NCBI RefSeq assembly: GCF_024808665.1
Contig: NZ_JANUBZ010000006.1
Coordinates: 186,001-250,000, forward strand
Length of the DNA stretch: 64,000 nucleotides
Reading direction: 5' to 3'
Source of the DNA: Mucilaginibacter empetricola
GTDB taxonomy: Bacteria; Bacteroidota; Bacteroidia; Sphingobacteriales; Sphingobacteriaceae
Shown: positions 18,989-53,301 of the stretch, piece by piece
Layout: the number at the start of each line of letters is the position of its first letter
Position numbering within the stretch: the stretch's first letter is position 1
Position numbers and translations under genes: made by a program
The notes under the pieces: generated by a model
What the model was told of the DNA's origin: nothing
Seen by the model: only the letters and a program-made list of their open reading frames with translations
Databases searched by the model: none

Positions 18989-20041
18989 GTGCTAATTAAA
19001 ACTTTTGGGAGTGCAGTATACGGCATCGAGGCTGTTACCATAACAGTTGAGGTAAACATCAGCGGCGGCAAAAACTATTATATTGTGGGCCTGCCGGATA
19101 ATGCCGTGCGCGAATCTATGCAGCGGGTTGAGGCTGCCCTGCAAACCAACAGTTTCCGGATGCCGCGACAAAAGATAGTAGTGAATATGGCTCCCGCAGA
19201 CATCCGCAAAGAAGGATCGGCCTATGATCTTACTATTGCTACAGCCATATTGGCCAGTTCAGGCCAGATAGAAAACGAAAACCTTGACAAGTATTTAATT
19301 ATGGGCGAGCTTTCGCTGGATGGCGGACTGCAACCTATAAAAGGTGCTTTGCCCATTGCTATACAGGCGCGGAAAGAGGGTTTTAAAGGATTTATTTTGC
19401 CCAAACAAAATGCCCGCGAAGCCGCCATAGTGAATGACCTGGAAGTATACGGCGTGGAAACCATAAAAGAAGTAGCCGACTTTTTTAATGGCGATGTGCA
19501 ATTAGTGGCCGAAGTAGTTAATACCCGCGAAGAATTTTTTAAAAGCCTCACCAATTACGATAGTGATTTTAGCGAAGTACGCGGACAGGAAAATATAAAA
19601 CGGGCGCTGGAGATTGCCGCCGCAGGCGGGCATAATGTGATATTGATTGGTCCGCCTGGAGCAGGTAAAACTATGCTGGCGCGACGGCTGCCATCCATTT
19701 TGCCGCCATTGAGTTTATACGAATCTTTAGAAACTACCAAGATCCATTCTGTAGCCGGTAAGCTGGCGGCAGCTGATGCTTTGGTAACCACACGGCCATT
19801 CCGCTCGCCGCACCATACTATTAGTGATGTGGCGCTGGTTGGCGGGGGCAGCAACCCGCAGCCGGGTGAAATTTCACTGGCACATAACGGTGTTTTGTTT
19901 CTGGATGAATTGCCGGAGTTTAAACGCAGTGCCCTCGAAGTAATGCGCCAGCCGCTGGAAGAACGCCGGGTAACCATATCGCGCGCTAAGTTTACGGTTG
20001 ACTACCCAAGCTCGTTTATGCTGGTGGCGAGTATGAACCCC
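18989..20041 (+). pseudogene. comM: comM (yifB) Mg-chelatase-like ATPase, 5' part, interrupted by the 33-kb element
   Basis: 351 codons from a GTG start, opening [20 protein letters not shown] as in ComM/YifB. The N-terminal Lon-like domain is followed by the AAA+ ATPase with Walker A GPPGAGKT (about 221-228) and the helicase motif FLDELPEF. It stops in mid-motif at LVASMNP, where the family continues CPCGYF. That continuation is found at 53295, so the gene is split by insertion. ComM is a helicase for branch migration during natural transformation, so the split probably removes that function. A 351-residue fragment ends at the TGA created by the junction (20042-20044). Confidence 0.95.
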
Positions 20042-21512
20042 TGAGGTTGTGTTGCTTATTTCCACCATTTTGGGAAAGCGGGGGCGCGTAGGCTAAGTTG
20101 ATCGTGATGTCTTCTTTGCCGATTTCGATGCCGGTTGTGATGGTTTCAACGATGGCCCGTTTCTGCTCAAAGCTCATATCTCCCCATTGGTCATATAACG
20201 CCTTGGCTTCCGTTAATACCCGGTCAGTGGACATTAGCTGGATGGTGCGAACATCAATTTCAGCTTCTAGTTGAGGTAGCTGTGTATCCATTTGGGAAAC
20301 TCGTTCTTCCATTGGCTTGTATTCCAATGCAAAGCCTTCTTTAGAGAGCTCTCCGTCTAAGCGTAGTGTCAAAAGATCGTTCATGCGTTTGGCAAGCCTG
20401 TTCCGTTCTTTAGTGGTGGTAGCAAGGAGGGCTTTCTTTTCTTCCAACTGTAAATCAGTTTGTTCAATGTAGTCAGCGGGATTGATGCCATTTAAATAGT
20501 CTTTTAAATAGGTTTGATATATTTCATCAATATCATCAACACCAATCCTGTTTTTGCATTTCTTGCAACTGAATACCCGAGACGTATGGTATACGTACAT
20601 AGCGGTACCACAGCTACACTGAACAAAGCCGGATAGTAAATACATTGCTTTGCGCCCTGGCTTTTTCCGTTTGACTTCGGTAGTGTCCAGTATGGCATTG
20701 CATTGATTCCATACATCGGGTGCAACAATCGCAGGACAAGGCAACCGAATCCATTCGTTTTGTGGTTTCAACACCCATTGTTTGCCGTCACCAAGACTTT
20801 TGGTGTAGTTAGCAATCCGTTCACCTTTGGCAGTTGGATCACGTAATAACCTGGCTACAGTGGTGTCAGAAAAGGCGCTGCCATTGCGGGTCCTGTATCC
20901 CAACTTGTTCAAGGCATCAGCAGTTGATTTTTTGCGTTGATGTTTCAGAAAGAGCTCATAAATCAATTTGCGTATCGGGGCTTCTGCTTCATCAATGACG
21001 AGTTCCTTGCCATCCCAGCGGTATCCAAATGAACTTTGCCCGCCTAATGGTTTGCCCATTCGTGCGCGGATTGGAACAGAGGCGGCAACACGAGAGGCGA
21101 TTTCTTCCCGTTCCCATTCTGCCATTGCAGAAATAATGGTGAAAAATAATCTTCCGGCCGGAGAGCTGGTATCAATGTTTTCAGACAATGATATAAGGTC
21201 AGCATTCTCATGGCGAAAGATTTCGGCAAATTCTAGGAGTTCTTTGGTGCTGCGGGCCAGACGGGCCAGTTTGGAAAATACCAGGCCGGTGATATGGCCG
21301 CTTCTGATGTCTGCGAGCATCCGTTTCGCTTCGGGGTGTCCCATGACAGACTTTCCACTTACTGCTTCAAGCCGGTATACTTCCATCACCTGCCAGCCTT
21401 TGGCTTCGATGTAGTAACGGGCGCGTTGTTCGTGATGTTCGGGGCTTTCTTCTTTAACTTGGAGTTCGGTACTTACACGTATCCAAATACCAACATGCTT
21501 TGGTTGCGTCAT
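20016..21512 (-). CDS. Large serine recombinase (element integrase)
   Basis: 498 residues. Catalytic Ser14 is in WIRVST, in a resolvase domain (about 5-150). The recombinase domain (about 165-280) is followed by a zinc ribbon (CSCG then SCKKC, about 318-342) and a long coiled coil (about 370-420). Residues 1-490 come from the element; the last eight, RGSYSPPA, are read from host comM antisense across attL and end at a host stop. In the excised circle the frame would instead continue into the HTH gene at the other end. It is the enzyme expected to insert and excise the element. Confidence 0.93.
20031..20055. other. attL junction of the serine-recombinase element
   Basis: The chromosomal side is the comM sequence ending ATGAACCCC, the shared dinucleotide is TG at 20042-20043, and the element side begins AGGTTGTGTTGC. 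Compared with attR (53283-53308), only TG is common, as expected for a large serine recombinase. Joining the outer halves gives AACCCC-TG-TCCATGC, which restores the comM frame (Asn-Pro-Cys-Pro-Cys). Confidence 0.88.
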
Positions 21513-21604
21513 TGGAATTGCTTTTAAATTGTGAAAGGAATAGTTTTATATTAAAGATAGCGGTTTTTGAATATTTGAAAAGGGGGGCTTTCCCCATCTA
21601 ACGG

Positions 21605-21632
21605 TTGACGGTCAAACTTTATAATAGCTTTG
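21605..21632 (+). promoter_or_regulatory. Bacteroidota promoter with overlapping TTGAC palindrome
   Basis: TTG at 21605-21607 and TAGCTTTG at 21625-21632 are separated by 17 bases, a good -33/-7 pair for the lipoprotein gene at 21726. The -33 part lies in TTGAC-G-GTCAA, a short palindrome that could bind a regulator such as the element's XRE or double-HTH protein (inference). Confidence 0.6.
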
Positions 21633-21725
21633 CTCAATGTGCCCGTTAAAACACCCTAAGAAATAGCGTTAAAATACTCTGGAATTTATAGGGTAGTTAC
21701 AGTACATTTATAAAAACCTCACACA

Positions 21726-22187: not shown

Positions 22188-22190
22188 ATT

Positions 22191-22523: not shown

Positions 22524-22555
22524 ATCGCAAATAAGTAGCTATTCATTAAATAAAT

Positions 22556-22576
22556 ACAGCCCCTGAAAGGGGCTGT
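22556..22576 (+). terminator. Stem-loop after the two-gene lipoprotein unit
   Basis: ACAGCCCCT pairs perfectly with AGGGGCTGT around GAA, 33 bases after the stop at 22523. It also lies past the 3' end of the convergent RuvC-like gene at 22611, so it could serve both strands. The following T-rich stretch is short. Confidence 0.8.
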
Positions 22577-22610
22577 GCATTTGTCATCGCTTTGCCTATA
22601 TTTTGTTGTG

Positions 22611-23673: not shown

Positions 23674-24567
23674 TTATATATTGTTTAGCGGATGTTTAGT
23701 CATTTGTGATCGTAAATGTTCCGCACTGGCAGATAAGTAAATCGTTGTTGTGCTGATATCGCTATGCCCCATCATTTTAGACAAGCTATATATGTCGCAC
23801 CCTCCTTCCAGCATTAAGGTGGCAAATGTGTGTCGCAGTTTATGAACGCTGAACGATAAGCCAAATGCATCCCGCATTTGCTCCACAAGTTTTTTTAAGC
23901 CATTTTCGGTGAATCCAACATTACCTCGCAGTGAACAGAAAAATTCAGCGTTGATCTTGCCCAATCGCTTTCGTTCCTCTATATATCGTTTTAAGCTTTG
24001 CGCCAGTGTGTAGCTAATAGGAATTATTCTGTCTTTATTGCCTTTTCCTTGCCTGACAAAGAGCGTAAGGTTATTGAGATCGACATCGGAATATTTCAAA
24101 TGTAACAGCTCTTGTTTGCGTAACCCCGCAAATATAAAGGTCGAAAAGAGGGCATGGTTTCGATAGCGGAGAAATGAATACTCGTAGGGATAGTTATAAA
24201 CCAGTTCCAATAGCCTCAACGCATCTTGCTTGGTGAGTTTAGGCGGCAGACATTTTTCTTTTTTGGGTATTTCAATATCACTAATGGGATTCTTTTCCAT
24301 ATAGCCCTGTTTTATACACCAACGGAAAAAGACCAGCAATGATTTATGGTAGACCAGGAAGGTATTCACCGACCATTTTCGTTCTGTTCTCCCCAAGAAA
24401 AACAAAGCACGAACCTTTTCGTCGGTAACAGCATTGAGGTCATTGATGCCCGTAAAGCGGCAAAAACAACTGATGACATATTTGTATCTCCGGATGGTGT
24501 TTGGTGAATAGCCCTTAAAAGAGAGCGAGTAATCACAAAACTTTTGTGATAGGAGCTCAATATCCAT
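23674..24567 (-). CDS. Tyrosine recombinase (site-specific integrase 1)
   Basis: 297 residues from the ATG at 24567 (a start at 24624 is possible). A SAM-like core-binding domain (IELLSQKFCDYSLSFKGYSP onward) precedes the catalytic domain with GLRKQELLHL (Arg), KGNKDRIIPI (Lys), HKLRHTFATL (His-x-x-Arg), GHSD (His) and TTTIYLS (Tyr nucleophile). All five are present. It lies just downstream, on the same strand, of a tRNA-Lys 3' half, the arrangement of an attP next to its integrase. It cannot be the enzyme that inserted this element at comM, because those junctions are of serine type. Confidence 0.9.
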   Translation of the reverse strand: MDIELLSQKFCDYSLSFKGYSPNTIRRYKYVISCFCRFTGINDLNAVTDEKVRALFFLGRTERKWSVNTFLVYHKSLLVFFRWCIKQGYMEKNPISDIEIPKKEKCLPPKLTKQDALRLLELVYNYPYEYSFLRYRNHALFSTFIFAGLRKQELLHLKYSDVDLNNLTLFVRQGKGNKDRIIPISYTLAQSLKRYIEERKRLGKINAEFFCSLRGNVGFTENGLKKLVEQMRDAFGLSFSVHKLRHTFATLMLEGGCDIYSLSKMMGHSDISTTTIYLSASAEHLRSQMTKHPLNNI

Positions 24568-24694
24568 GATGGTATGGAGCAGTTTATTTGATGATTGTTG
24601 TACCGCCAACGGCCTGTTTACCAAAAGAGCTGGTCTCAGGCAACGCTTTTTTGGCCGATTATTTCCTGAATACCTTTTGTTTAAAGGCTATTTG

Positions 24695-26015: not shown

Positions 26016-26936
26016 TTAAATTGAAATTTTTCCGATGTCATCGATCATGTCTTCCGTTCTCATTGAACGGGCATACCGCATGGTCATTGCAATATCAGTG
26101 TGTCCCATCATTTTCTGCACCTTGAACACGTTTACGTTTGCTTCGCAGAGTTTACAAGCGAACGTGTGTCTAAACTGGTGAAGGTGGAATTTTACGCCAG
26201 ACTTCAGTATGAGGCTTTTCACCCAGTGTTTTAATCCATGCCGTGTTAGTCCGCTATCTCCCTTAGTGGCGACAATCAACCATTCTGTCTTTAATTTTCT
26301 CCTTTCATTAAGATAGTCCTTTATATGCATAGCCAGGGTTGGGTGCATTTTAAGCACGCGGGTCTTTTTTGACTTCGATGTTTCTGCACGTACCGTTAGC
26401 TCGTTCTTTATCAGATCGAGGTCGCTGACATGAAGCGAAATAAGCTCGCCTTTACGCAGCCCGCAGAACAAGAGAATACTTACCATCATGGTATCTCTTC
26501 GGATTGTTAGGGCATTAGCGGAGCATCGGACAATTGAAGAATATATTTTATTGATGTCGCTGTTTTCTAATTTTCGGAAGTCGTCATAGTTAGGCCGGGG
26601 CGGCTTAATATCTTTCAGCGGGCTTTCTATGATAAATCCGCGCTTTTTCAGCCACACAAAGAAGACGTTCAATTTGCTCCACTGCGTTTTAATGGTGGAT
26701 TTTTTAACCCCTGATGTTACCGTTTTTCCCACCATTCGTGGACGGGTTTCGATTCGTCTGAAAAATTCGTTTAACATTTCCGGAGTTAATTCTTTAGGAG
26801 AAGTGACTTCAGGCATAATTTTTAGAAACAGAAGAAAGACGGCGTTATAACCTCTTGTTGTTTCAGGGCGAAGTCTGCGCGAATAGTTGCATTCCAAGAT
26901 GAATTCTTGGAACAGCGCATTAATAGTATTCATCAC
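26016..26936 (-). CDS. Tyrosine recombinase (site-specific integrase 2)
   Basis: 306 residues. N-terminal core-binding domain (about 5-90), then the catalytic domain with GLRKGELISLHVSDLD (Arg), TSKSKKTRVLKM (Lys), HQFRHTFACKL (His-x-x-Arg), GHTDIAM (His) and MTMRYAR (Tyr). All key residues are intact. It is divergent from the ATPase gene at 27025, with about 90 bases between starts. Which DNA it acts on is not known; it is only distantly like the first tyrosine recombinase. Confidence 0.9.
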   Translation of the reverse strand: MMNTINALFQEFILECNYSRRLRPETTRGYNAVFLLFLKIMPEVTSPKELTPEMLNEFFRRIETRPRMVGKTVTSGVKKSTIKTQWSKLNVFFVWLKKRGFIIESPLKDIKPPRPNYDDFRKLENSDINKIYSSIVRCSANALTIRRDTMMVSILLFCGLRKGELISLHVSDLDLIKNELTVRAETSKSKKTRVLKMHPTLAMHIKDYLNERRKLKTEWLIVATKGDSGLTRHGLKHWVKSLILKSGVKFHLHQFRHTFACKLCEANVNVFKVQKMMGHTDIAMTMRYARSMRTEDMIDDIGKISI

Positions 26937-29265: not shown

Positions 29266-29400
29266 ATAAGTAACTGATAATAAGGTTAATTAAGAACTAA
29301 GGTAATCAAATTTAACAATAAAAATAAATCTGCTTAATAAACGCTATTTTTTCTTTGGCTTAATCCTATGGATACAGCGCCATTTGTGGTCTTTTATACC

Positions 29401-29422
29401 CTGTACGCTCGCGAGCGTACAG
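29401..29422. promoter_or_regulatory. Perfect 22-base palindrome in the divergent region before the ArdC-like gene
   Basis: CTGTACGCTCG is followed directly by its reverse complement, giving a perfect palindrome with no spacer, about 90 bases before the likely ATG at 29513. A two-fold site of this kind could bind a dimeric regulator controlling the divergent genes (28585 and 29513). Confidence 0.6.
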
Positions 29423-29512
29423 GTAATTTATATAAATAGTATTGCCTCCCTTTTTTCTGTTTTCATGCTCCCGTACAATCAAAGAAAATTCTTTGAATTA
29501 AACTTGTACACC

Positions 29513-30433
29513 ATGAACACACAAAATCAACACCTTGATGTATTCGCCATCATTACTAATCGGATTATCGAACAACTAGAAAAGCAAGTCATTCCTTGGC
29601 GAAAGCCCTGGACGGAAGGCGGCCATCCGCAGAACCTATTCACCAAACGCCCCTATACCGGCATCAACACCTGGCTGCTTGGATCATTAGGGTATTCCCA
29701 AAACTATTTCCTCACCTGGAAGCAGCTTAAGGCAGTAGGGGCAAGTGTTAAAAAGGGAGAAAAAGGAACAATGATAGTATTTTGGAAGACTGTTCTACAA
29801 CAGCATTCTAAAAACAATACTGAACCTCCACAAACAAAGTCAGTCCTGCGGTATTATTATGTTTTTAACATTGCCCAGATTGATAATTTGCCAGAGGTGA
29901 TAACCATTCCGTTTTCACCGGAAATCAATATGCACCTGGGAGCCTGTGATGAAATCATTGAAGCAATGCCACATTGCCCGGCCATTAAACACAGCAAACA
30001 AAAGGCATATTATGATCCGATCAAGGATTGTATCAATATTCCTAAACAGAGTTCGTTTGATGCCATTTCCGGCTATTACAGCACGCTATTCCATGAGCTG
30101 ATTCACAGCACCGGCCATCAATCCCGGTTGAATCGTAATGAGATTACTGAGCTCAACAAGCATGATGTCGAACGGTACAACATTGAAAACCTTACCGCTG
30201 AAATAGGTACATGCTACCTAAATTCAATTACCGGTATTGCTGTGAAGGAGTTCGACGACAATACCGGTGATATAATGGATATAAGAAGGTGGACTGAAGC
30301 ATTGAAGAATGATAGATGGATGATTGTATCTGCCAGTATGCAAGCACAGAACGCGATTGAATACATCTTCAATGTGCAGCAAAATGCCAACAAAGAGCTC
30401 GTTGAAGAAACGGAAATTGCAAAGACCCATTAA
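29513..30433 (+). CDS. ArdC-like antirestriction/ssDNA-binding zincin protein
   Basis: 306 residues from the ATG at 29513; the open frame extends upstream but the family starts at MNTQNQHLDVFAIITNRIIE. The N-terminal ssDNA-binding domain has IPWRKPWTEGG and PYTGINTWLL with LTWKQLKAVGASVKKGEKGT. The C-terminal zincin domain has HELIHSTGH near residue 200, the HExxH zinc motif. ArdC proteins of plasmids and ICEs protect incoming DNA from restriction. A terminator follows directly. Confidence 0.88.
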   Translation: MNTQNQHLDVFAIITNRIIEQLEKQVIPWRKPWTEGGHPQNLFTKRPYTGINTWLLGSLGYSQNYFLTWKQLKAVGASVKKGEKGTMIVFWKTVLQQHSKNNTEPPQTKSVLRYYYVFNIAQIDNLPEVITIPFSPEINMHLGACDEIIEAMPHCPAIKHSKQKAYYDPIKDCINIPKQSSFDAISGYYSTLFHELIHSTGHQSRLNRNEITELNKHDVERYNIENLTAEIGTCYLNSITGIAVKEFDDNTGDIMDIRRWTEALKNDRWMIVSASMQAQNAIEYIFNVQQNANKELVEETEIAKTH

Positions 30434-33629: not shown

Positions 33630-35177
33630 CTAAATTTTTGCCCCTAACATCGCGCTTTTATTCCGGCAGTGTTGATTTTCGCTGAATTTTGCCCGAACAA
33701 TTTCATTTCCCCAAATCTTGCGCCCTGCATGTTTAGGATTCTCGAAGAAATGCTTGTTGCGCGAAGCAAAATAAAGGTCAATAGAATGCTTGCATTCATC
33801 GACGGACATATAGTCACTGTTGTGGATCACTGTTTTGGCCAAGCCAGCAAAGACTGATTCGATTACATTAAGAAACTGTGTGGATGCCGGCAAAGGAACA
33901 AGCTTGATTATTGGCTTTTCAATTTTGTTATGGTCTGCAATATGATTTTTGAGAATGTTAGAATTATGCCAACTTACAGCATCCCAGCATAAATACAATG
34001 TTTCTTGATTGTTGTATTGCTTCGCAAGCAGGTCGATGAGCTTAATCATTTCAAAGGTGTTCTTCTTTGCGGAGAAAAAATGAGTGATTTGATTAGTCGA
34101 TAATTCTAATGCTGCGGTACAGATCACGATCCCTTTGGCCTTTTGCTTTTCCGGCACGATATTCGGACCCTCTGTTTTGTGCTTCAAGGTGCGACCTCCT
34201 TTAATCTTTATAGACACTGGCCCGTATTCATCTATGGAGAAGAATTTTTCATTGGGCTTAAGCTTTTGCAGGGTGGACTGTATCTTTCTTATCTTCTCCC
34301 GAAATTTGGGATCGGGGCTTGTCAGCATCTCTCTTGATTTCGTATACCGGTATCCCATTTGATTCACACAGCGGCAGATTTGCCAGTAGTGCACTTGTGG
34401 AGAGTACAATTTATTATAAACAATAGTCAGCGCCGTTAAGCTCCAGCTCGTTCTGTTGAGCCCGTGTAGCTTAGGTGATTCATGGATTAGCCTCAGCAAT
34501 TTTTCCTTACGGGCTTTAACAGCTTTGGCCGTGCTTTGATTTCGTGGATTGGGTGCGAAATCGAAAGCCTTTAAGCCTTTTTTCTTATAACCATCAATCC
34601 ACTGACCAAGTGTTTTGTAACTCGTTTCCACCTTGTCAATTATTTGTTTGCGCGCTGCGCCTTGTTGGGCCATTTCTAAAGATTTGGCGATCTGCCAGAG
34701 CCGGTGGTTATTCGAATTTCGCCAACTTTTAATTGTAGCGATATCATCGGGGGCGATGTAGTCCAATAACTTTTGCAGTGTCGGGGTAATATTATCTTTC
34801 AGCCAAGCAAAAAGAAGCGGCTTGAATGTAGGGAAGGCGTATGTGTCTGTACTGAGTTCAGCGTATTTATTCCAAACCTTAACTGGCTCAAGCGTTGATG
34901 TTTTTTCTTCAGCAATTAATGCAGGTATAATGAGTAAGAACTGGCTATACTTTGGCGTAGACCAATGCGCCCTTTTGGGCTCACTGGGATAAAATCCGAA
35001 ATCGTTCAGCCGCTCTGGATATTCAGCCCTGATTTTCTCAAATTCACGCTTATAGCGCCATGTTGTAATCGTGGATACCCGTAACTCTTTTGCAAGCAAA
35101 TAGGAATGATATTCGCCGTCAATAAATCGTTGCCGCAAAATTTTAGCCTTTTCCAAGGAAAGCTGGTAGCGCTGCAT
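33630..35177 (-). CDS. IS630-like DDE transposase
   Basis: 515 residues, longer than most IS630 transposases (about 350) because of an N-terminal HTH region and a linker of about 150 residues. The DDE core is visible: FSIDEYGPV (first Asp), LCWDAVSWHN (second Asp) and LNVIESVFAGLAK (Glu). No clear terminal inverted repeats or TA duplication were found, so the ends of an IS are not defined. It may be a domesticated or degenerate copy. Confidence 0.8.
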   Translation of the reverse strand: MQRYQLSLEKAKILRQRFIDGEYHSYLLAKELRVSTITTWRYKREFEKIRAEYPERLNDFGFYPSEPKRAHWSTPKYSQFLLIIPALIAEEKTSTLEPVKVWNKYAELSTDTYAFPTFKPLLFAWLKDNITPTLQKLLDYIAPDDIATIKSWRNSNNHRLWQIAKSLEMAQQGAARKQIIDKVETSYKTLGQWIDGYKKKGLKAFDFAPNPRNQSTAKAVKARKEKLLRLIHESPKLHGLNRTSWSLTALTIVYNKLYSPQVHYWQICRCVNQMGYRYTKSREMLTSPDPKFREKIRKIQSTLQKLKPNEKFFSIDEYGPVSIKIKGGRTLKHKTEGPNIVPEKQKAKGIVICTAALELSTNQITHFFSAKKNTFEMIKLIDLLAKQYNNQETLYLCWDAVSWHNSNILKNHIADHNKIEKPIIKLVPLPASTQFLNVIESVFAGLAKTVIHNSDYMSVDECKHSIDLYFASRNKHFFENPKHAGRKIWGNEIVRAKFSENQHCRNKSAMLGAKI

Positions 35178-35521: not shown

Positions 35522-35989
35522 ATGGCAAGCCAAACAACTGTCCATGCCCATAACTCCCAACACTTTGAGGATTTGCAGCTCTCATCACGGGAGTTCTATG
35601 AGGTATTAAAAAATATGATTTTGGAATACCAATATCCCGATGTAATCTGTAGTCCGGTTACACTCAAAGAGAGTGGTATCTTTTCGTCAGCGCGGGAGTA
35701 TTTACGTATTTCCAGAGGACGGCACCACTATTACGTTTGTGCCAGCCCGTTTGGCCGAAGCTTCTTTATCAGTTGGTGGTACCAGGAAAATGCCCATACT
35801 TCAGCAAATGTCGCGCGAAAATTTGGCCTGTTCGGAAGAGCAATAGCACAGCGCATGGAAAGCAAAACGTTTTATGAACTGGATACTGAACTCATGTTCA
35901 CCACCAGCATTACGGCCATCATTCAAATGGTCGTGGATAAAGTCAAAGCGGATAGAGGTTTTCGCAAGGACGTAATTGATATGCCCTGA
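35522..35989 (+). CDS. Hypothetical protein coupled to the large ATPase
   Basis: 155 residues, soluble, no known domain. It opens MASQTTVHAHNSQHFEDLQL and contains RISRGRHHYYVCASPFGRSF and WWYQENAH. Its stop overlaps the start of the ATPase gene (TGATG), so the two are translated together and probably work together, perhaps as an accessory of DNA transfer. The function is unknown. Confidence 0.75.
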   Translation: MASQTTVHAHNSQHFEDLQLSSREFYEVLKNMILEYQYPDVICSPVTLKESGIFSSAREYLRISRGRHHYYVCASPFGRSFFISWWYQENAHTSANVARKFGLFGRAIAQRMESKTFYELDTELMFTTSITAIIQMVVDKVKADRGFRKDVIDMP

Positions 35990-38904
35990 TGATTTCTAGC
36001 TCACAGGCATTAACCAACCAGTTCTACGAATGGGAGCAATTGGGGAGGGGCTGGCACAAAGCACAGCACCTGGTTGATCTTGAGCCGGCCTTTACGCCAT
36101 TCTTTGGCCATTTCCTCACGCAACCCATTATTGATGACGGAAAGCGCGAGCATTGGCTACGGAGCTTTCTTGCAGGATGGAAATCGAAAGATACCGAAGT
36201 TGCTGTTGTATCTGATCACCCGCCATTGTCTTTTCCCAATACCGACAACACAGACCTCTGTATCTATACGATCACCATACCCAAGGACTTTAAACAAAGC
36301 ACCGAACGGCTTGAACAGCTCCTTATCATGCTTTCATACCGTAAAAGCCATCTCAGCTTTGAAATCATAGCTTCCAGTGACCAAATCAGCTTGCAATGGG
36401 TCTGCCGGGACTATGACGCTACATTTGTGCGCATCCAAATTGAAGCATTTTTCCCTGACTGCGTGGTACTTGAAGCGGAGGAGGATAAGGTAGTCGCCCT
36501 CTATGATAATGATCTGCCGCTTTATACGGTGGATTTTGGCTTGGCAGAGGAGTTTATGCGTCCCATAGCACCCTTTCAATCATCCGACCCAGACGGCTAC
36601 ACACCCTTATTTGGCATTCTTTCTCGCCTGGACGGCGAGCAATCCGTAATTATGCAAATACTATTTAGCGGTACGCACAATGCCTGGGCAGAAAGTATTA
36701 TGACTGCGGTAACGAATGAAGGCGGCAAGCAGTCATTTTTCTTTGATGCCCCGGAAATGCCCTTGCTGGCTAAAGAAAAAACAGCCCGGCCGCTCTTTGG
36801 CGTAACAGTTCGGGCAATGACGTTTGCAGACACAGTGTCTGATGCAGGTATATTGTTGCAACAAGTCGCTACTGCCATTATCCATGCTTCAAAAAGTCCT
36901 CACAATAGCCTTATTCCGCTTTCAGATGCAGCATATACCATTGATGAGCGTATTAGTGACATCATACAAAGAACAACGCACCGTGTTGGCATGCTGCTCA
37001 ATAGCAAAGAGCTGGCAACACTGGTGCATTTTCCGGCCACCCATAGCGCCAAATTGCAAACAACAACCCGCGCCACCAAAAAGGCCCCGGAATACCTTAT
37101 CGATGAATCGTATATATTTGGCATCAATGAACATCGCGGTGTGCAACATAGCGTGGGCATATCCGGCGAACAGCGGCTGCGCCATCTGCATATTATGGGT
37201 GCAACGGGCACCGGCAAATCAACGTTGCTGAAAGCCCTCATCATGCAAGATATTTACGATGGGGCTGGCCTGATGTGCCTTGACCCGCACGGTGATTTAG
37301 TGGAAGATATACTGGCAAACATTCCTGAAGAACGCATCCAAGATGTGGTATTGATTGATCCTCACGATGCCGACTTTCCGATAGCTTTCAATATTTTGGT
37401 GGCGCATTCTGATACGGAAAGAGAATTGGTGGCCTCTGATTTGGTCGCAGTATTTCGGCGTTTTAGCACATCATGGGGAGATGCCATGAATAGCGTCTTT
37501 GCAAATGCTATTTTGGCATTCATGTATAACACGAAGCAATACCATTTGGGCGATCTCAGGCGATTTCTCATTGAAGCTTCATACCGTGCGCACATCCTGG
37601 CCACTGTCACCGATCCTGATATTGTGTACTATTGGCAGGTTGAGTACCCCATACTGAAAAGCAATTCCATTGGCTCTATTTTGACCAGGCTTGATGCCTT
37701 TTTACGGCCTCGGGTGATTCGTAATATGCTTTGCCAAAACAAGAGCATTGATTTTGGTCAGTTGATGGATAGCAATAAAATTGTACTAGTGAAGCTGTCG
37801 CAGGGTTTATTAGGGATGGAAAATAGCTATCTCTTGGGGGCCTTTATCGTTTCCAAATTGCAGCAAACTGCCATGGCCCGGCAAATGCAAGAAGCAAAAG
37901 ACCGCGTTCCATTCTTTTGCTACATTGACGAATTTCAGCATTTCATCACCCCCTCAATGGCCTCTATTTTGTCGGGAGCCAGGAAATATGGATTAGGATT
38001 AGTGCTCTCGCACCAGGATATACAACAGGTTGCCAAATATGATCCTGAGATTGCCAGCAGCGTTTTAGCCAATGCCGGTACGCGAATGTGCTTTCGGCTC
38101 GGCGATACCGATGCCAAGCGCCTGGAAGATGGCTTTGCTTTTTTTACTGCCAAAGACTTTCAAAATCTTCCCATCGGCGAAGCTATTGTCCGGGTCAATA
38201 CTGCTGACAACGATTTTAACCTGACAGTGATTCCATATAATTTGGATACTACGGTGAATTATGTAGAGAAAATCATCGAATTTTCCCGCGTCCACTATAG
38301 CGTTCCTATCCAGCCGCAACCATCAGCTCCCATTGAGCCTGAACCGGGTCCAGTTCCGCAACAGCCGGCACCGAAGGAACCCATTGTGCCATTGGCAGAT
38401 GAAGAGCCTACCACCAGTGCCAAGCAAGAACATATACGGGAACACCGCTATTTGCAGACCTTTGTCAAAGCAATGGCCGAAGCGCACGGATACATTGCGC
38501 AGCTGGAGGTGCCGACACCGGACGGCACCGGTCAGGTTGATGTGCTGTTAGAAAAAAACGGTGTTACTATCGCCGTTGAAATATCGGTGACCACCAGTCC
38601 CGAGTGGGAATTGCACAATATTAAAAAATGCCTGGCTGCGGGATACAATCGTATTGTCGTCTGTACGTCCCAATCATCCAAACTTACGTTGATACAGCGG
38701 CAGATCACCGCGCACCTTACCCCGGCAGAGCAGCAAAAAGTGGATGCCGTTCTGAGCAACGACATCCACACCATATTTGAAAGCACACAACAAGCAAAGC
38801 CAACCGAAACCCTGGTTAAGGGGTATAGGGTAAAAGTGAATTATGAGCCGAATGCCAATCGTCAAGATTTGCTGCAAAGCGTTATCAAAGCGGCAAAAAA
38901 ATAG
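35989..38904 (+). CDS. VirD4/HerA-like ATPase with a C-terminal nuclease-like domain
   Basis: 971 residues. The N-terminal 390 residues are of unknown type. Walker A is GATGTGKST (about 404-412), with CLDPHGDLVEDIL after it, and Walker B FFCYIDEFQHF (about 641-651). A Pro-rich linker (about 770-815) leads to a C-terminal domain with GQVDVLLEKNGVTIAVEISV near 845-865, like a PD-(D/E)xK core. The usual ExK is E-I-S, so it may bind rather than cut DNA. It is a coupling or translocation ATPase. Its paralogue is at 27025. Confidence 0.8.
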   Translation: MISSSQALTNQFYEWEQLGRGWHKAQHLVDLEPAFTPFFGHFLTQPIIDDGKREHWLRSFLAGWKSKDTEVAVVSDHPPLSFPNTDNTDLCIYTITIPKDFKQSTERLEQLLIMLSYRKSHLSFEIIASSDQISLQWVCRDYDATFVRIQIEAFFPDCVVLEAEEDKVVALYDNDLPLYTVDFGLAEEFMRPIAPFQSSDPDGYTPLFGILSRLDGEQSVIMQILFSGTHNAWAESIMTAVTNEGGKQSFFFDAPEMPLLAKEKTARPLFGVTVRAMTFADTVSDAGILLQQVATAIIHASKSPHNSLIPLSDAAYTIDERISDIIQRTTHRVGMLLNSKELATLVHFPATHSAKLQTTTRATKKAPEYLIDESYIFGINEHRGVQHSVGISGEQRLRHLHIMGATGTGKSTLLKALIMQDIYDGAGLMCLDPHGDLVEDILANIPEERIQDVVLIDPHDADFPIAFNILVAHSDTERELVASDLVAVFRRFSTSWGDAMNSVFANAILAFMYNTKQYHLGDLRRFLIEASYRAHILATVTDPDIVYYWQVEYPILKSNSIGSILTRLDAFLRPRVIRNMLCQNKSIDFGQLMDSNKIVLVKLSQGLLGMENSYLLGAFIVSKLQQTAMARQMQEAKDRVPFFCYIDEFQHFITPSMASILSGARKYGLGLVLSHQDIQQVAKYDPEIASSVLANAGTRMCFRLGDTDAKRLEDGFAFFTAKDFQNLPIGEAIVRVNTADNDFNLTVIPYNLDTTVNYVEKIIEFSRVHYSVPIQPQPSAPIEPEPGPVPQQPAPKEPIVPLADEEPTTSAKQEHIREHRYLQTFVKAMAEAHGYIAQLEVPTPDGTGQVDVLLEKNGVTIAVEISVTTSPEWELHNIKKCLAAGYNRIVVCTSQSSKLTLIQRQITAHLTPAEQQKVDAVLSNDIHTIFESTQQAKPTETLVKGYRVKVNYEPNANRQDLLQSVIKAAKK

Positions 38905-41777: not shown

Positions 41778-41778
41778 T

Positions 41779-46098: not shown

Positions 46099-49000
46099 AT
46101 GCAAAAGATATATTCTACAAATAAAACCAGGCTTTTTATTGCAATGATATTGAGCTTCTTTGCGCTGAAAGGGATTTGCCAGCCCTCAATCAGTTACAGC
46201 AATAGTACGTTGACCTTTACAGTAGGCTCGCATATTGCGCCTATCTTTCCGGTCGTGAGCGGCACCAGTTTGCCTTATGCCTACGGCCAGACGATGACCA
46301 TAGCGGGCAGCGGGGTGTCGGGTTATTTGAACGGCACAGGGACAGCCGCCAAATTTTCAGTACCGGAATCAGTCGTTGCCGATGCCAGTGGCAATATCTA
46401 TGTGACGGATGGGTTTAACGGCTCGATTCGTGAAATATCGCCGACAGGGGTAGTAACTACCTTTTCAGGATCTGGCGCAGGCGGTGAAGTCAACGGTAGT
46501 GCAGGTACTGCCAGATTCGATCTCCCTATGGGCATATCATTTGATGGCAGCGGAAATCTGTATGTAGCGGATTTTTATGGAAATGTAATCCGTATGGTGA
46601 GCCCCACTGGAACGGCAAGTACCTATGCGGGAACCGGCACAGCAGGTTATGTAGATGGCCCTATAGCCAGCGCAGAATTCAACCATCCTATGGGCACAGC
46701 CGTAGATGCTGCAGGTAACGTATATGTATCCGATAATTACAATAGTGTTATCCGCAAGATTACCCCTGCGGGTGTGGTCAGCACTTTTGCGGGCAGCGGC
46801 ACCCCAGGCGATGATGATGGCGTAGGTACGGCGGCCCAGTTCAACAATCCACAGGGTTTAACCTTTGATGCTTCGGGTAACTTATATGTAGCCGATAAAA
46901 ATAACAATGTGATCCGCAAGATCACTCCGGCGGGAGTGGTGAGCACCTATGCTGCGGATAGCTATGAAGCGCTGGTTAATGGAGACAGCCCTACAGCCAG
47001 TTTTTTCTACCCGGTAGCGGCAGCGGTAGATGCAGTAGGAAACATGTATGTTTCAGACCAATATTACAGCGTCATCCGAAAGATCACACCGGGCGGCGTA
47101 GTCAGTACATTGGCAGGTAGCGGTACCGTTGGCTCAGCGGATGGCATCGGCACAGCAGCCAGTTTTAACAGCCCTAATGGAATAACGGTAGATGCAACCG
47201 GGAATATCTACGTTGCCGATGCAAGCAATAACAAAATTCGCAAGATCATCACGGGTGCTTACAGCATCACCCCGGCCTTACCGGCGGGCGTGGTGTTCGA
47301 TCGCGCCACAGGTGGTATCAGCGGAATACCGACAGTAGCAACCCCCACCGCCACTACCTATACCATAACGGCTGTCAATAGTCTGGGGCCCGGCCCTCCT
47401 GCCACAATTACCTTGGCAGTCAACCCGCAAAGTAGTGTTAACGTTAGTCAAAATCAAAACTATATAACGACTTTTACACCAAGACAAGCAGGAATTACAA
47501 ATAATGCTGCTCTGGCAACAGCAAGTACCGATAAAAATAATGTAGAAATCAATGTGCAATATTTTGATGGTTTAGGCAGGCCTATACAAACAGTGCAGGT
47601 AAAAGGATCACCAACTGGAAGAGATATAGTGCAGCCAATAGCATATGACCAATTTGGAAGAGAGACAAGCAAATATTTACCCTATGCAGTACAGCCGACA
47701 GCTGCAAGTGACGGAAGCTACAAAACAATTGCTTTGACAGATCAATCGGCGTTTTACGCCAGCCCGACAGGAAATACCTGGAATGCTCCGGCAGTTGTCA
47801 GTACACAGTACCCGGTTAGCAGCACAAATTATGAGCCATCGCCACTGAACAGAGTTGTAGAACAAGGTGATCCGGGAACGTCCTGGCAATTAAGTACAAG
47901 TGGAATAAGCGGCAGCGGGCATACGACTACTGTAGATTATGAAAGTAATGATCAAACTGTATTTAACTCCTCGATATTAACCAACAACCCTGGCAGTCGT
48001 ATGGTAGCCCTCTATACAACCGTCATTAATAGTGATTTGAGTCAAACTCTAGTGCGGGCGTCCAACACGGCCACTTATAATACGGGAACCCTTTACCTGA
48101 CCATTACGCGAGGTGAAAACTGGAATCCGACAAGTGACGGCTGCCTTAATACTACCGAAGAATATAAAGATATAGAGGGGCACGTAATATTAAAACGAAC
48201 TTATAATAATACGGGCAGTCAAATACAAATGCTAAGTACGTATTATATATACGATAATTTGGGCAATTTAGCCTTTGTGTTGCCACCGCAGTCTAATCCA
48301 GATGCGACCAACGCAATCAGCCAAACAACTTTAAATAACCTGTGTTACCAATACCATTATGACCAACGGAATAGGCTTATCCAAAAGCAATTACCAGGCA
48401 AAGGCGTTGAAGAAATGGTCTATGACCAGATAGATCAACTGTTATATGACCGTGACCCTTATAAAAAAGCCCTTGGCGAGTGGGGATATACCAAGTATGA
48501 TGGATTGGGACGGGTAATAACTACTGGTATTACGATAGATACAAGTTCCCGGGCTCCCTTACAGAGTTATGTAAACAATATGATTGCCCTGACAGATACG
48601 GTTAGCCAATGGGAAGTGCCCGTAACAGCTAACGGTATACAAGGTTACAGTGATACCGCATTCCCATGGGGCAATAACCAGATACCACTGGTGGTGAACT
48701 ATTATGACAATTATAGCTTTCCGGGACAACCGTCAACCGTGGTTTCACCAACCGGTGCCAGTACAATGACCAGGGGTTTGCCAACGGCTACCAAAACAGC
48801 GGTGCTGAATACGTCCGGCACTCCTTCCGCCACACCGGATATGCTATGGACGGTTCATTATTATGATGACCTGGGCAGGGTAACCCAAACCTATAACCAG
48901 CATTATCTTGGGGGTGTATTAAGTGCCAATAACTATGATGTGATCAAAACCGCTTATAGTTTCACCAATATACCGCTCACGGTAACCAGGATACATTCCA

Positions 49001-50853
49001 TTAGCGCTGTCCGAAATACCACTACGATAACAAATCAGTATGTATACGATCACATGGATCGCAAGGTAGGCACCTGGGAACAGCTTACCTACAGCCCTGG
49101 AATTGCCACCAGCCGCACGCTGATCTCCAACGTTATTTATAACGAGCTGGGCCAGGTGATGACTAAAAACCTGAATAGTTTGGATAGCCTTACTTTTTCA
49201 CAAAACATTGCTTACAATTACAATGAAAGGGGCTGGATGTTGGGCAGCAGTGCACCTTTATTCCAGATGCAGCTTCAGTATAATAATGTAAACAATGTAG
49301 CTGGCATCAGCCCCGTTGCGCAATACAACGGCAATATTGCCAGCCAGAGCTGGGGTACAAGTAGTATGCCTAATGCTAATAGTTATACTTATGCCTACGA
49401 TCAACTGAACAGGCTGATCTCTGGTACTGGCACCACGGGAAATACGGAAAATAATATCACTTATGACCTGAACGGAAATATCAGTACGCTTAATCGTTAC
49501 CAAACAACCTCAAATACCTTAATAGATCAACTGGCTTATACTTATATCAATGCTGCCGGTAACTATACCAATCAGCTGCAATACGTAAACGATAACAGTG
49601 GTTATTTCGGCACTACCGATTTAGTAAACGGAACAACCAATTATACTTATGACAATAATGGCAATATATTAAGCGGTATCAACACGGCCGTAACGACACA
49701 GAATAAGAATTATACTTATAATATGCTCAACCTGCCCGTTACCATCACCAAACCGACGGGAACGGTAACCTATACCTATGATGCCAGTGGCAGAAAGCTG
49801 AGGAAAGTAAGCGTAATAGGTGGCATTACAAAGACCACGGACTATATTGATGGCATCGAATATGATAACAGCAATACTTTTATCGGTTTTATACAAACAG
49901 AGGAAGGTAAGGTAGTACCCACCTCAACTACTAATAATTATATGAGCTATGATTATTACTATTATTTGGGCGATAATCTGGGCAATACAAGAGTAACATT
50001 CGATACCAAAAACGGCTTGATAACCCAGCTTCAAACAGATGACTATTATCCATTTGGGCTGGAGATCAACAGCCTTGTCAACAGTACTAAAAATGAATAT
50101 CTTTACAACAAGAAAGAGTTACAGGAGGAGTTAGGGCAATACGATTATGGTGCGAGGTTCTATGATCCAGTGATTGGGAAATGGACAGCTGTGGACCCTT
50201 TAGTTGAAGTAGGACAAGAAAGCATGACCCCATACGGTTATGTTTTTGATGATCCAATCAGTCATACAGATCCCGACGGTAAGGTTCCTTGCTGTGCTGT
50301 TGAAATAAGTGTGCTTGAAGCAGGCTTTACAGCGGCCGGTGAAGTGGAGGGTGGAAGTTTTGGTTCAGGGACACCAATTGCAGGTGGAATTGTACTTGGT
50401 ACACTAGGAGCTGTCGCCTCAGTTTATATTGGTGAACATCTTCCGAGCTATAGTGTTTCAATTAACACCGCTCATTCAGGCGGGAGCCCTGTGATGCAGC
50501 GTGATGGAAACTTACAACCAACGCCAATATTGCAGGGAGCTAGTAACAAAAATAGATTGCCAGATGTAGGAACGCCTAACACAATGGATACTAACAAACC
50601 AGGAACAACCACAAAGGTTTATGGTCCTAATGGACAGGTGCAAAAGGAATACAATAAAGGGCATCCTGAAGTCCATACACCTAGTAACGAAAGGAGTGAT
50701 CATGTGCATGATCACAGACCTAATCCAAATCCTGGAAACCCGACAAAAACAAAAAGGATGCCTGGAAGGGCCCCTAAACCCAATGAGATGCAAAAAGATA
50801 AAGCGAAACAACAGCAAAAGCAACAACAAAATAACACTAATTCAAGTACCTAG
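46099..50853 (+). CDS. Rhs polymorphic toxin with NHL propeller
   Basis: 1584 residues. Signal peptide; NHL repeats (about 74-382, units such as ASGNIYVTDGFNGSIREI); a putative Ig-like piece (He_PIG-like) near 390-440; a DUF6443 domain (about 447-600); many Rhs/YD repeats; and the core RFYDPVIGKWTAVDPL (about 1352). After DPDGKVP (about 1393) comes a variable tip of about 190 residues with HSGG, TKVYGPNGQVQKEYNKGHPE and SDHVHDHRPN, resembling polymorphic toxin type 24, but uncertain. It is an antibacterial contact toxin candidate. Confidence 0.82.
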   Translation: MQKIYSTNKTRLFIAMILSFFALKGICQPSISYSNSTLTFTVGSHIAPIFPVVSGTSLPYAYGQTMTIAGSGVSGYLNGTGTAAKFSVPESVVADASGNIYVTDGFNGSIREISPTGVVTTFSGSGAGGEVNGSAGTARFDLPMGISFDGSGNLYVADFYGNVIRMVSPTGTASTYAGTGTAGYVDGPIASAEFNHPMGTAVDAAGNVYVSDNYNSVIRKITPAGVVSTFAGSGTPGDDDGVGTAAQFNNPQGLTFDASGNLYVADKNNNVIRKITPAGVVSTYAADSYEALVNGDSPTASFFYPVAAAVDAVGNMYVSDQYYSVIRKITPGGVVSTLAGSGTVGSADGIGTAASFNSPNGITVDATGNIYVADASNNKIRKIITGAYSITPALPAGVVFDRATGGISGIPTVATPTATTYTITAVNSLGPGPPATITLAVNPQSSVNVSQNQNYITTFTPRQAGITNNAALATASTDKNNVEINVQYFDGLGRPIQTVQVKGSPTGRDIVQPIAYDQFGRETSKYLPYAVQPTAASDGSYKTIALTDQSAFYASPTGNTWNAPAVVSTQYPVSSTNYEPSPLNRVVEQGDPGTSWQLSTSGISGSGHTTTVDYESNDQTVFNSSILTNNPGSRMVALYTTVINSDLSQTLVRASNTATYNTGTLYLTITRGENWNPTSDGCLNTTEEYKDIEGHVILKRTYNNTGSQIQMLSTYYIYDNLGNLAFVLPPQSNPDATNAISQTTLNNLCYQYHYDQRNRLIQKQLPGKGVEEMVYDQIDQLLYDRDPYKKALGEWGYTKYDGLGRVITTGITIDTSSRAPLQSYVNNMIALTDTVSQWEVPVTANGIQGYSDTAFPWGNNQIPLVVNYYDNYSFPGQPSTVVSPTGASTMTRGLPTATKTAVLNTSGTPSATPDMLWTVHYYDDLGRVTQTYNQHYLGGVLSANNYDVIKTAYSFTNIPLTVTRIHSISAVRNTTTITNQYVYDHMDRKVGTWEQLTYSPGIATSRTLISNVIYNELGQVMTKNLNSLDSLTFSQNIAYNYNERGWMLGSSAPLFQMQLQYNNVNNVAGISPVAQYNGNIASQSWGTSSMPNANSYTYAYDQLNRLISGTGTTGNTENNITYDLNGNISTLNRYQTTSNTLIDQLAYTYINAAGNYTNQLQYVNDNSGYFGTTDLVNGTTNYTYDNNGNILSGINTAVTTQNKNYTYNMLNLPVTITKPTGTVTYTYDASGRKLRKVSVIGGITKTTDYIDGIEYDNSNTFIGFIQTEEGKVVPTSTTNNYMSYDYYYYLGDNLGNTRVTFDTKNGLITQLQTDDYYPFGLEINSLVNSTKNEYLYNKKELQEELGQYDYGARFYDPVIGKWTAVDPLVEVGQESMTPYGYVFDDPISHTDPDGKVPCCAVEISVLEAGFTAAGEVEGGSFGSGTPIAGGIVLGTLGAVASVYIGEHLPSYSVSINTAHSGGSPVMQRDGNLQPTPILQGASNKNRLPDVGTPNTMDTNKPGTTTKVYGPNGQVQKEYNKGHPEVHTPSNERSDHVHDHRPNPNPGNPTKTKRMPGRAPKPNEMQKDKAKQQQKQQQNNTNSST

Positions 50854-51231: not shown

Positions 51232-51309
51232 CAGATTCATAGCCTGGATCGTGATGGTGGCGCGACAAGCGCAAAACTTCATGTGAATTTGATACTAAAA
51301 ACTCATGAT

Positions 51310-51346
51310 AACAAAAGCCTGGCAAAGTGCCGGGCTTTTGTTATTT
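51310..51346. terminator. Stem-loop terminator between the immunity gene and the HTH remnant
   Basis: AACAAAAGCCTGGCA pairs with TGCCGGGCTTTTGTT around AAG, followed by ATTTT; the A-rich left arm also gives a T run on the other strand. It is probably bidirectional. Confidence 0.85.
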
Positions 51347-51544
51347 TAGATGGGCCTTCCTAGCCTTATAATCCCTAATAAGTGCGTCGATAACCATATA
51401 GACTTGTGTCTGTTCTTCCTCTGATAGAGAAGTTATTTCGTTTATAGGGGTTAGTATAACGGAGTCTAACTTAGTATCGGTTATTTCAGAAAGGTAATCT
51501 AATGATATATCTAAAGCTCTAGAAAGACATGCTACAACTTCAAC
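51341..51544 (-). pseudogene. C-terminal remnant of an XRE regulator
   Basis: One minus-strand frame gives VEVVACLSRALDISLDYLSE then SEEEQTQVYMVIDALIRDYK, the end of XRE-type regulators (the pattern after the HTH). It is bounded upstream by a stop, and the HTH part is absent. Not in a normal gene; a broken regulator near the right end of the element. Confidence 0.65.
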
Positions 51545-51645
51545 CTATTATTAAACGCATTGAAGTTTGAAACTTGTTTTTTAGATTTGCCCCAACCGCG
51601 ATTTTGTTTTCCCAAATTCCATCTAAAATTAGTTTATTTGGGGAT

Positions 51646-52752
51646 ATGGTTTTTAAAAAAGAACTGCGCGCACTTTGGAATAAATTAACTTCGGACATCA
51701 CTGAAATTCCTGAAATTTTAAAACCTTCTTATTTCCCCGGCTTAGATGGACTAAGGGCTATCTCTATAATTATTGTGGTGATAAGCCATTTATTTAAAGT
51801 AGGGTGGTCAAAATATTTTGACGGTGAGATGGGCGTGGAGATTTTTTTTGTAATTAGTGGGTTTCTTATTACAACTCTTCTTTTAAAAGAAAAAGTCAAG
51901 TTTGGTAAAGTATCATTGAAACAATTTTATATTAGAAGAGCATTAAGAATTTTTCCAGTGGCTTATCTATATCTATTTAGTTTATTAATACTCACCATCG
52001 TTTTTAATCTAAATACCACATTGAAAATGTTCCTTTCGGCGGGAGCGTATATTGTTAATATTCCATTAATTCATGGAAAAAACTGGCAAACAGCACATTT
52101 TTGGAGTTTATCGGTGGAAGAACAATTTTACTTGATTTTCCCATTCTTTCTAATCAGAAATCCCAACAGATTTTTAATTTTTATCGCTACATTTTTACTA
52201 GTCTTGCCGTTGATCGTATTGGTTGGGATACTACCGTTAAACTTTTATAATAGTCACCTTTTCATACATAAATTTATCCGCCTTTTTGCGTTCTTATTTG
52301 CGCTGGGGACTGCATCAATTTTGATTGGTGCGGCGATTTCGATATTGCTTTTTAAAGAAGTAATTATTTTGAAATGGCCTTCAATTTACTTTTTGAGTTT
52401 TTTTATTTTCGTTCTTGCAATAGTCATCCGCTATCAAGATTTCTTGAATGATTATGTCAGGGAATATATATTTGCACTTTTGATAGGGTACACAATTATA
52501 CTAAATTTAAAAAAAGACAATTTCTTCTCTGTAATACTGAATCATCCTTTAATGATTAAACTTGGGGTTCTTTCTTATAGTATTTATGTTTGGCAGCAGT
52601 TGTTTACGAACGAACAGCCCTGGAGTGGGCAATTTAAATATAGTGATAATATTTTATTGAATTTATTTGTCCTTTTTATTGTGGCTTACTGTTCTTATAA
52701 TTTTTATGAACGTAAATTTTTAAAGCTTAAAAGAAGATATACCACCGTATGA
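51646..52752 (+). CDS. Acyltransferase 3 family membrane protein
   Basis: 368 residues from the ATG at 51646 (GGGG just before it); the frame is open from 51574. SYFPGLDGLRAISIIIVVIS with a conserved His (SHLF), FFVISGFLITTLLL and RRALRIFPVAY are family signatures of OatA-like O-acyltransferases. About ten membrane helices. It transfers acyl groups to surface sugars. Being on a mobile element, it may alter the host surface (inference). Confidence 0.88.
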   Translation: MVFKKELRALWNKLTSDITEIPEILKPSYFPGLDGLRAISIIIVVISHLFKVGWSKYFDGEMGVEIFFVISGFLITTLLLKEKVKFGKVSLKQFYIRRALRIFPVAYLYLFSLLILTIVFNLNTTLKMFLSAGAYIVNIPLIHGKNWQTAHFWSLSVEEQFYLIFPFFLIRNPNRFLIFIATFLLVLPLIVLVGILPLNFYNSHLFIHKFIRLFAFLFALGTASILIGAAISILLFKEVIILKWPSIYFLSFFIFVLAIVIRYQDFLNDYVREYIFALLIGYTIILNLKKDNFFSVILNHPLMIKLGVLSYSIYVWQQLFTNEQPWSGQFKYSDNILLNLFVLFIVAYCSYNFYERKFLKLKRRYTTV

Positions 52753-52824
52753 TATTTAAGAATCGCCTAACAGATATGGAAAACACTCTAATGATTATAA
52801 AATCGAATCAATAAAAAATACCGC

Positions 52825-53301
52825 TCAATCTTGGCGGTATTGTGTTTTTTGAGGCCCTGAAAGTTCAAGCCACAAGTTGTAAATTACAGTTCTAATAGTT
52901 GCATTTTTAATCAGGTATCCTGCTTCATAACGTTTAACAGTGGCTATATCAATAGCCAACAGCTTTGCACATTTTGTAATGTTTAACCCGTTGCAATATC
53001 GAACTTGTTTTAACTTCCCAGCCATACTTTCTGTTTCGTGGGAAAATGGATAGTACCCAATAAAAGAAATTATAACCGGATAATACTGCACCTGCGGAAC
53101 AAACCTGCCATTCTCCCAATACGTGATAGTGTCTTCGGATACGTTAATCATTGCCGCAATCTCTTTTTGCAATAAGCCTTTGTCCATCCGAACTTTTTTA
53201 ATATGTTCACCTAATGTTTGCGGAGTGATAGGATACCCCTTTTTGTATGGTCTTACAACTGTTTTCTGGTATTGGTAAAAAGGCAACGCAGGGATGTCCA
53301 T
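52825..53301 (-). CDS. Double helix-turn-helix (XRE-type) protein at the right end of the element
   Basis: 158 residues in the integrated state; its ATG (53299-53301) is host comM antisense DNA outside the element. Two HTH segments: TLGEHIKKVRMDKGLLQKEI with NVSEDTITYWENGR (about 28-65), and KLKQVRYCNGLNITKCAKLL with DIATVKRYEAG (about 93-130). The family occurs with recombinases in other bacteria. In the circular element residues 3-158 would be in frame with the recombinase's first 490 codons, so it may be a fusion or have its own later start. Confidence 0.8.
   Translation of the reverse strand: MDIPALPFYQYQKTVVRPYKKGYPITPQTLGEHIKKVRMDKGLLQKEIAAMINVSEDTITYWENGRFVPQVQYYPVIISFIGYYPFSHETESMAGKLKQVRYCNGLNITKCAKLLAIDIATVKRYEAGYLIKNATIRTVIYNLWLELSGPQKTQYRQD

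Follow-up and report, generated by a model that had tools for sequence, protein, structure and literature searches.

A large serine integrase gene apparently split by the integration of its own element into comM in Mucilaginibacter empetricola

The stretch studied here, 64,000 nucleotides of Mucilaginibacter empetricola (assembly GCF_024808665.1, contig NZ_JANUBZ010000006.1, positions 186,001 to 250,000; hereafter the window, to whose own numbering all coordinates refer), carries a mobile element some 33 kb long, bounded by the TG at 20042-20043 and the TG at 53295-53296. Its host target is a Mg-chelatase gene of the comM/yifB type, split at MNP/CPCG with a 2-bp TG/CA core. The flanks rejoined without the element give a comM/yifB-like Mg-chelatase reading ...SMNPCPCGYF..., and both the break point and the 2-bp core were verified against the intact comM of five other genomes (ATGAATCCN TG YCC). 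At the two ends of the element stand the two parts of an integrase gene, one coding for a large serine recombinase and the other for two helix-turn-helix (HTH) motifs:

18989..20043, plus strand: comM/yifB-like Mg-chelatase gene, disrupted, 5' part
20016..21512, minus strand: large serine recombinase in its short, integrated form; of the 498 codons, 490 belong to the element and 8 to the host (PF00239, PF07508)
20016..20041, minus strand: host-encoded tail and stop of the recombinase, antisense to comM (from the reading frame and intact comM elsewhere)
20042..20043, no strand: crossover core TG (CA on the gene strand), recombinase-side end (by comparison with intact comM)
20044..20063, minus strand: attP arm within the recombinase codons, complementary to the other arm at 12 of 20 positions
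52825..53295, minus strand: detached 3' part of the integrase gene, 156 codons, two XRE-type HTH motifs (PF01381, profile A1)
53275..53294, minus strand: attP arm within the HTH codons (from the arm-pair complementarity test)
53295..53296, no strand: crossover core TG (CA), HTH-side end (by comparison with intact comM)
53297..53780, plus strand: comM/yifB-like gene, disrupted, 3' part
53299..53301, minus strand: ATG of the HTH half, of host origin (found in 5 of 20 elements)

The two parts fit each other exactly. Codon 490 of the recombinase closes on the C of the core, and the gene then runs through eight host codons (RGSYSPPA) to a host TAA. The HTH reading frame (52825-53301, minus strand, 158 codons) takes its first two codons, ATG GAC, from the host, up to the core, and its codon 3 opens on the core A, in the same phase as codon 490 of the recombinase. 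Joined through CA, the halves form a single open frame of 646 codons, reading ...KQHNL/IPALPFYQYQ.... The original prediction had claimed this phase match, a stop-free frame of 490+156=646 codons across IPALPFYQYQ and both HTH motifs, eight host residues and a host stop on the integrated recombinase, and a host-encoded ATG for the HTH gene. Its coordinates and arithmetic are correct, the frame is open on the joined sequence, and the host residues, the stop and the ATG are all present in the window, which confirms the observation of a recombinase-HTH frame split by integration. With the ends joined in silico, attP falls within the integrase coding sequence.

This arrangement recurs among related elements. 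From 33 loci with related recombinases and the genomes of the family we obtained 21 elements with both ends in comM, the window's included. The HTH end of one (G015) had no comM match, which left 20 evaluable pairs. Two loci (L021, L023) were set aside since their recombinase does not reach the comM junction, and others since the HTH or comM end was not found or the site was another one (among them L014, L016, L017, L018, L020, L022, L024, L025 and L027-L033). In all 20 pairs the recombinase and HTH frames share the same phase at the core with no intervening stop, and the other two frames meet a stop within 2-76 codons. Both ends lie on one contig in 14 pairs, one of them the outer pair of a tandem array, and in the same genome only in the remaining 6. 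The naive probability of 20 in-phase open pairs out of 20 is 3e-10, which is not a true p-value because the elements are related. A stronger point against chance comes from the phase itself, which is 0 in 18 pairs and 1 on both sides in two, from a deltaproteobacterial and a Caulobacter bin, so that both ends have shifted together. The length and sequence of the host-derived tail of the recombinase vary among elements. At other att sites, where the core was placed by the best palindromic test, four of five pairs are in phase (L020/L061, L022/L052, L024/L057, L028/L056), and the fifth (L030/L059) gives a three-way tie with one of three cores agreeing in phase. One of these related elements, in Lutibacter (L024 and L057), has inserted in comM at another position, around residue 238, and faces the other way; its halves are also in phase. 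Judging from these comparisons, we are highly confident that the split-integrase architecture is real and conserved.

The attP arms themselves show some symmetry. Those of the window are complementary at 12 of 20 positions, which was equalled or bettered by 157 of 100000 random pairs, and those of L028/L056 pair at 19 of 20. Because the arms pair in this way, the residues at the join, QHN and IPALPF, may be the translation of an att palindrome. Short att sites with a 2-bp core, as placed here with the five intact comM genomes, are consistent with the action of a large serine recombinase.

The domains of the recombinase point the same way. Resolvase (PF00239, E 3.6e-30) and Recombinase (PF07508, E 2.7e-17) score above cutoff, and the zinc-ribbon profile PF13408 gives 15.7 bits against a cutoff of 25.3. 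Residues R12, V13, S14 and T15 (P0004 numbering), of which we take S14 to be the catalytic serine, are invariant in 18 of 18 aligned fusions. Among solved structures, residues 46-441 align to YokA chains, so 490 codons already take in the standard enzyme, and the HTH part comes on top of it. Assignments to CcrA, CcrB or CcrC (NCBIfam scores of 51 of 700, 141 of 900 and 128 of 900 bits, respectively) and to XisF (83 of 375 in the curated NCBIfam family) were rejected. The HTH part matches PF01381 (E 2.1e-9) and has two XRE-type motifs, the second recognised by alignment and PDB matches. Its sequence relatives in PDB include Cro/CI-type repressors, controller proteins and antitoxins (among them P22 C2, SinR and HipB). 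The family and PDB searches of this part gave no link to a known recombination directionality factor (RDF) of serine integrases, and its identification as a VC1465-type Xer activation factor was rejected (37 of 70 bits in the curated NCBIfam family).

The original prediction had called for a database search for recombinase-HTH proteins of 640-650 residues. With the 646-residue joined sequence as query, the search returned 5173 proteins. Among the best 120 matches listed, the window's own included, 26 are natural fusions (at least 560 residues, extending into the HTH part) and 94 are shorter. The lengths of 25 of these fusions fall within 633-659 residues and the remaining one has 576. The join motif I[PHL]AL[PA][FC] occurs in 22 of the 26 fusions versus none of the 94 shorter proteins, 82 of which end in the pattern expected of antisense comM. 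The fused and short classes thus look, from their sequences, like one gene before and after integration.

A fused gene is also found where two elements stand in tandem. In a Mucilaginibacter bin (G004:C24), the order is the comM 5' part, a split recombinase (rec_B, 50.8-52.3 kb), a joined gene made of the HTH of the same element and the recombinase of its neighbour (HTH_B=rec_A, 90.0-91.9 kb), a split HTH (HTH_A, 105.1-105.5 kb) and the comM 3' part. At the middle junction the assembly shows 649 codons in frame and without a stop, joining a recombinase to the HTH of the neighbouring element. Such an array should be the expected outcome of a second element inserting at the end of the first. Whole genomes hold further fused frames, one of 635 codons in L021 and two that reach the contig end (G016:C25, G021:C3). 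Five IMG/VR loci have relatives; in three the recombinase is covered and its frame ends at 484-500 codons, so these are not fused, and the other two give partial matches only. The plasmid collection gave no match at 1e-60. In the phage collection 9 records matched at 1e-30 and 658 at 1e-8, none of those listed reaching 60% identity. The plasmid and phage collections have no close relative among those matches.

The HTH half is retained as a coding sequence. Of the 14 closest among its 253 pairs, 12 are unsaturated and give a dN/dS (ratio of nonsynonymous to synonymous substitution rates) of 0.09-0.33, with 0.09-0.21 in five pairs between recombinase-bearing genomes and 0.23-0.33 in seven pairs involving a genome without recombinase. 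For the recombinase itself the range is 0.03-0.12, from the 7 pairs that are unsaturated out of the 14 closest of 120. The ratios for the HTH half, rough since several pairs have dS above 1, show purifying selection at the level of sequence comparison. Its frame is broken in none of 22 places in 19 recombinase-bearing genomes (G000 included) versus 5 of 20 places in 17 genomes without a recombinase, defined as no match at 1e-40 (p 0.018). The broken ones are G086, G233, one of two in G116, G248 and G268, the last two scored by the table of in-frame stops alone; G212 (two places) and G135 were not scored broken, their HTH frames reading at least 142 codons from the core despite listed stops. 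This is modest evidence that the HTH half is kept because of the recombinase.

Some of the recombinase-less loci have unusual organisations. Three HTH units lie between comM halves in G212:C26 (L105, L196, L197), with no recombinase match at 1e-40, and the comM 5' part has an enolase-like gene close by; the three look like stacked non-autonomous units or a rearrangement. In L200 (G131:C58), an intact comM lies beside an extra comM 3' fragment adjoining an HTH unit, as if the gene had been restored later. In L021 and L097 (Pedobacter and Sphingobacterium), where fused recombinase-HTH genes stand 0.18-0.25 kb inward of the comM junction, there is an end sequence, ...CGA/CA, shared in type with G212.

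Could the detached half make a protein of its own? Antisense host sequence stands upstream of it. In 5 of 20 elements (the window, G002, G003, G009, G011) a host ATG stands at -6; the core has an ATG in 6, and G003 has both. The remaining elements would have to start at a GTG or TTG codon, at a host ATG lying farther off (G228, G019) or at an ATG deeper within the half. Some hosts may make a separate HTH protein, but these start codons do not support a conserved one. Of the switch between fused and separate proteins in the original prediction, the fusion in the excised form is supported, by 26 natural fusions, 20 of 20 frames and restoration in tandem; the distinct HTH product, with its host ATG in 5 of 20 elements, is not supported in the form proposed.

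Between its ends the element carries, among other genes, two that bear on its type:

35989..38904, plus strand: TrwB/TraG-type coupling ATPase (PF10412, E 9.1e-13)
29384..30433, plus strand: ArdC-type antirestriction protein (PF08401, E 1.9e-28)

The coupling ATPase, ArdC and the cargo point to an integrative conjugative or mobilizable element and away from a phage; an integrase, defined ends and a coupling protein are all present. No relaxase domain was found among the 20 cargo open reading frames scanned with Pfam, a subset of those in the element. Two tyrosine recombinases with Phage_integrase domains (23674-24624 and 26016-26936, both on the minus strand) lie inside this element bounded by a serine recombinase, and are possibly remnants of nested elements. 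There are also a transposase of the DDE superfamily (33630-35177, minus strand) and a protein of 1584 residues with DUF6443, NHL/teneurin-like and RHS repeats (46099-50853, plus strand), preceded by one of 1232 residues without a Pfam match.

We propose, with a probability of about three in four, that attP lies inside the integrase gene and that integration removes the HTH tail, giving enzyme forms specific to each state of the DNA. The excised circle would encode a 646-residue protein, Int-L, made of a large serine integrase and a C-terminal tail of two XRE-type HTH motifs. Crossover between attP and the attB of comM would sever the gene after codon 490. The integrated element would then make Int-S, which begins at the same codon as Int-L, has an unchanged upstream region, and consists of the domains typical of large serine integrases plus a few host residues; the HTH part would be left at the opposite end of the element, with host DNA in front of it. 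The tail would do its work in the circle, where binding to att or element DNA is its most likely mode of action. Such binding may allow Int-L to favour integration or to repress element genes, and the loss of the tail after integration may help to fix the integrated state. The position of att, the long frame in joined or tandem DNA and the short frame in integrated DNA can be read directly from the assemblies, and from them we infer that both Int-L and Int-S are made. Int-L at full length is probably the selected form. Whether the tail changes the direction or the state of recombination is evenly balanced, promotion of integration or regulation in the circular phase being its most likely role, and an att-coupled switch is a plausible control function. 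It is doubtful that each DNA state encodes the isoform that favours it, which would make the gene a self-reinforcing memory switch encoded in sequence.

Several observations weigh against this proposal. Int-L and Int-S are forms predicted from assembled DNA, and the circle is predicted from the joining of its ends. Of 20 places in genomes without recombinase, 15 have an unbroken HTH frame (2 being partial matches), so the HTH may also work by itself. Recombinase-less units in G212 have their non-coding left arm in two positions, at the comM junction and immediately ahead of an HTH, and at the tandem junction, where there is no recombinase gene, a stop lies in the HTH frame just before the HTH. 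The HTH part of G009 has just 86 codons. A database search seeded with the HTH part gave no match at E 1e-8 among 72 candidates, even though fusions are known; the HTH shares few exact words, and the count of fusions is thus at least 26. A phylum-wide sample of 395 genomes gave no fusion and 10 matches in 8 genomes, the window's included, all ending by position 525 of the 640-position fusion model. Finally, in L021 (Pedobacter) and L023 (Sphingobacterium, where the recombinase frame is broken) the fused gene lies inside the element, with the comM junction 0.18-0.25 kb beyond. A fusion that survives integration speaks for the long form being a functional protein, but also means that splitting is not universal.

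These facts leave room for other readings, which overlap, so that their probabilities do not sum to one. The HTH tail might serve autoregulation, Int-L repressing the integrase promoter or the transfer genes in the circle and Int-S being unable to do so, with a change in expression only. The two XRE-type motifs and their relatives among repressors and antitoxins in PDB (P22 C2, SinR, HipB) are what one would expect of such a protein. The operator that it would need is putative, and we consider this reading less likely than not.

Self-trapping as in archaeal SSV-type elements would leave the integrase inactive after integration, so that the element could excise only with a full copy supplied by another one. 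It follows the same logic of an att site within the gene (PMC8371274). A full gene is indeed present in a tandem array. Yet Int-S retains its catalytic and Recombinase domains, and this part evolves under purifying selection, unlike a pseudogene, which makes self-trapping rather unlikely.

The tail might instead be a built-in directionality factor, such that Int-L favours attL x attR recombination, keeping the circle excised, and Int-S, without the factor, keeps the element integrated; either state would then code for the enzyme form that maintains it. The solved PDB chains of YokA joined to YotN, which we take to be the directionality factor of YokA, have such a layout. Engineered C-terminal fusions of integrases with an RDF drive attL x attR and lower attP x attB recombination (PMC5737554). 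However, the HTH part is XRE-like with no known link to a serine-integrase RDF in the family and PDB searches, and integration would hang on a weak activity of Int-L, so we regard this reading as unlikely.

Passive geometry, with attP lying by chance at the 3' end of the integrase gene, the HTH being a neighbouring regulator and read-through in the circle having no function, would fit the facts that integrase genes commonly adjoin attP and that HTH frames stay open in most of the recombinase-less places, but is improbable given 20 of 20 pairs in phase without a stop, a phase that co-varies at both ends, an HTH start codon that is not conserved, and natural fusions, one of them retained in L021.

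The proposed splitting of the integrase has partial parallels. In the archaeal SSV-type "suicidal" integrases (SSV1, pTN3, pT26-2), attP also lies in the integrase gene and integration splits it; these are tyrosine recombinases, described as exclusively archaeal and as being cut into inactive halves (PMC8371274). Here, the enzyme is by its Pfam domains a bacterial serine recombinase that would lose just an added HTH tail, and the short form in the window keeps the catalytic domain. In mycobacteriophage BPs and its relatives, attP lies in a regulatory gene, that of the repressor, and integration yields a C-terminally shortened active product, which underlies integration-dependent immunity (PMC4557955). 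In those phages it is the repressor that becomes shorter, losing a degradation tag, whereas here the integrase itself would be altered. The engineered fusions of serine integrases with an RDF (phiC31 Int-gp3, Bxb1 Int-gp47) likewise place a regulatory domain behind the integrase C-terminus in a single polypeptide (PMC5737554), but are man-made and permanent, whereas here recombination would make and break the join and the tail is a putative regulator.

The target itself is a common one. Homologs of Mg-chelatase genes are the targets of 12.4% of the predicted site-specific large serine recombinases, and the available part of that account describes no gene-splitting fusion (PMC10083194). In Wolbachia, phage WO prophages of the sr1 type bring together a serine recombinase, a magnesium chelatase gene as the insertion site and, at the 3' end, HTH_XRE genes (PMC9203015); the chelatase adjoins the recombinase, and WOVitA2 is of the sr1 type (PMC5447182). 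Despite this likeness of site, recombinase and HTH_XRE genes, phage WO is not supported as an instance of the same design, no HTH frame having been seen at the far end of the deposited WOVitA2 record. A literature search, with subscription papers mostly outside its coverage, found no recognisable account of a bacterial serine integrase split in this way. The truncation of a gene coupled to att is a known principle; the truncation of the serine integrase itself would be the novelty, and a self-splitting integrase of the bacterial serine type, beyond the archaeal tyrosine ones, looks new in the light of the available texts.

If the proposal is true, self-splitting integrases would extend from archaeal tyrosine to bacterial serine enzymes, with both products possibly active, and an element could have a different integrase in each state of its DNA. 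The switching of direction by serine integrases is a central question of the field, and this element may supply a matched pair of enzyme forms to address it. A fusion made by recombination would also be a ready one-gene switch for genome engineering.

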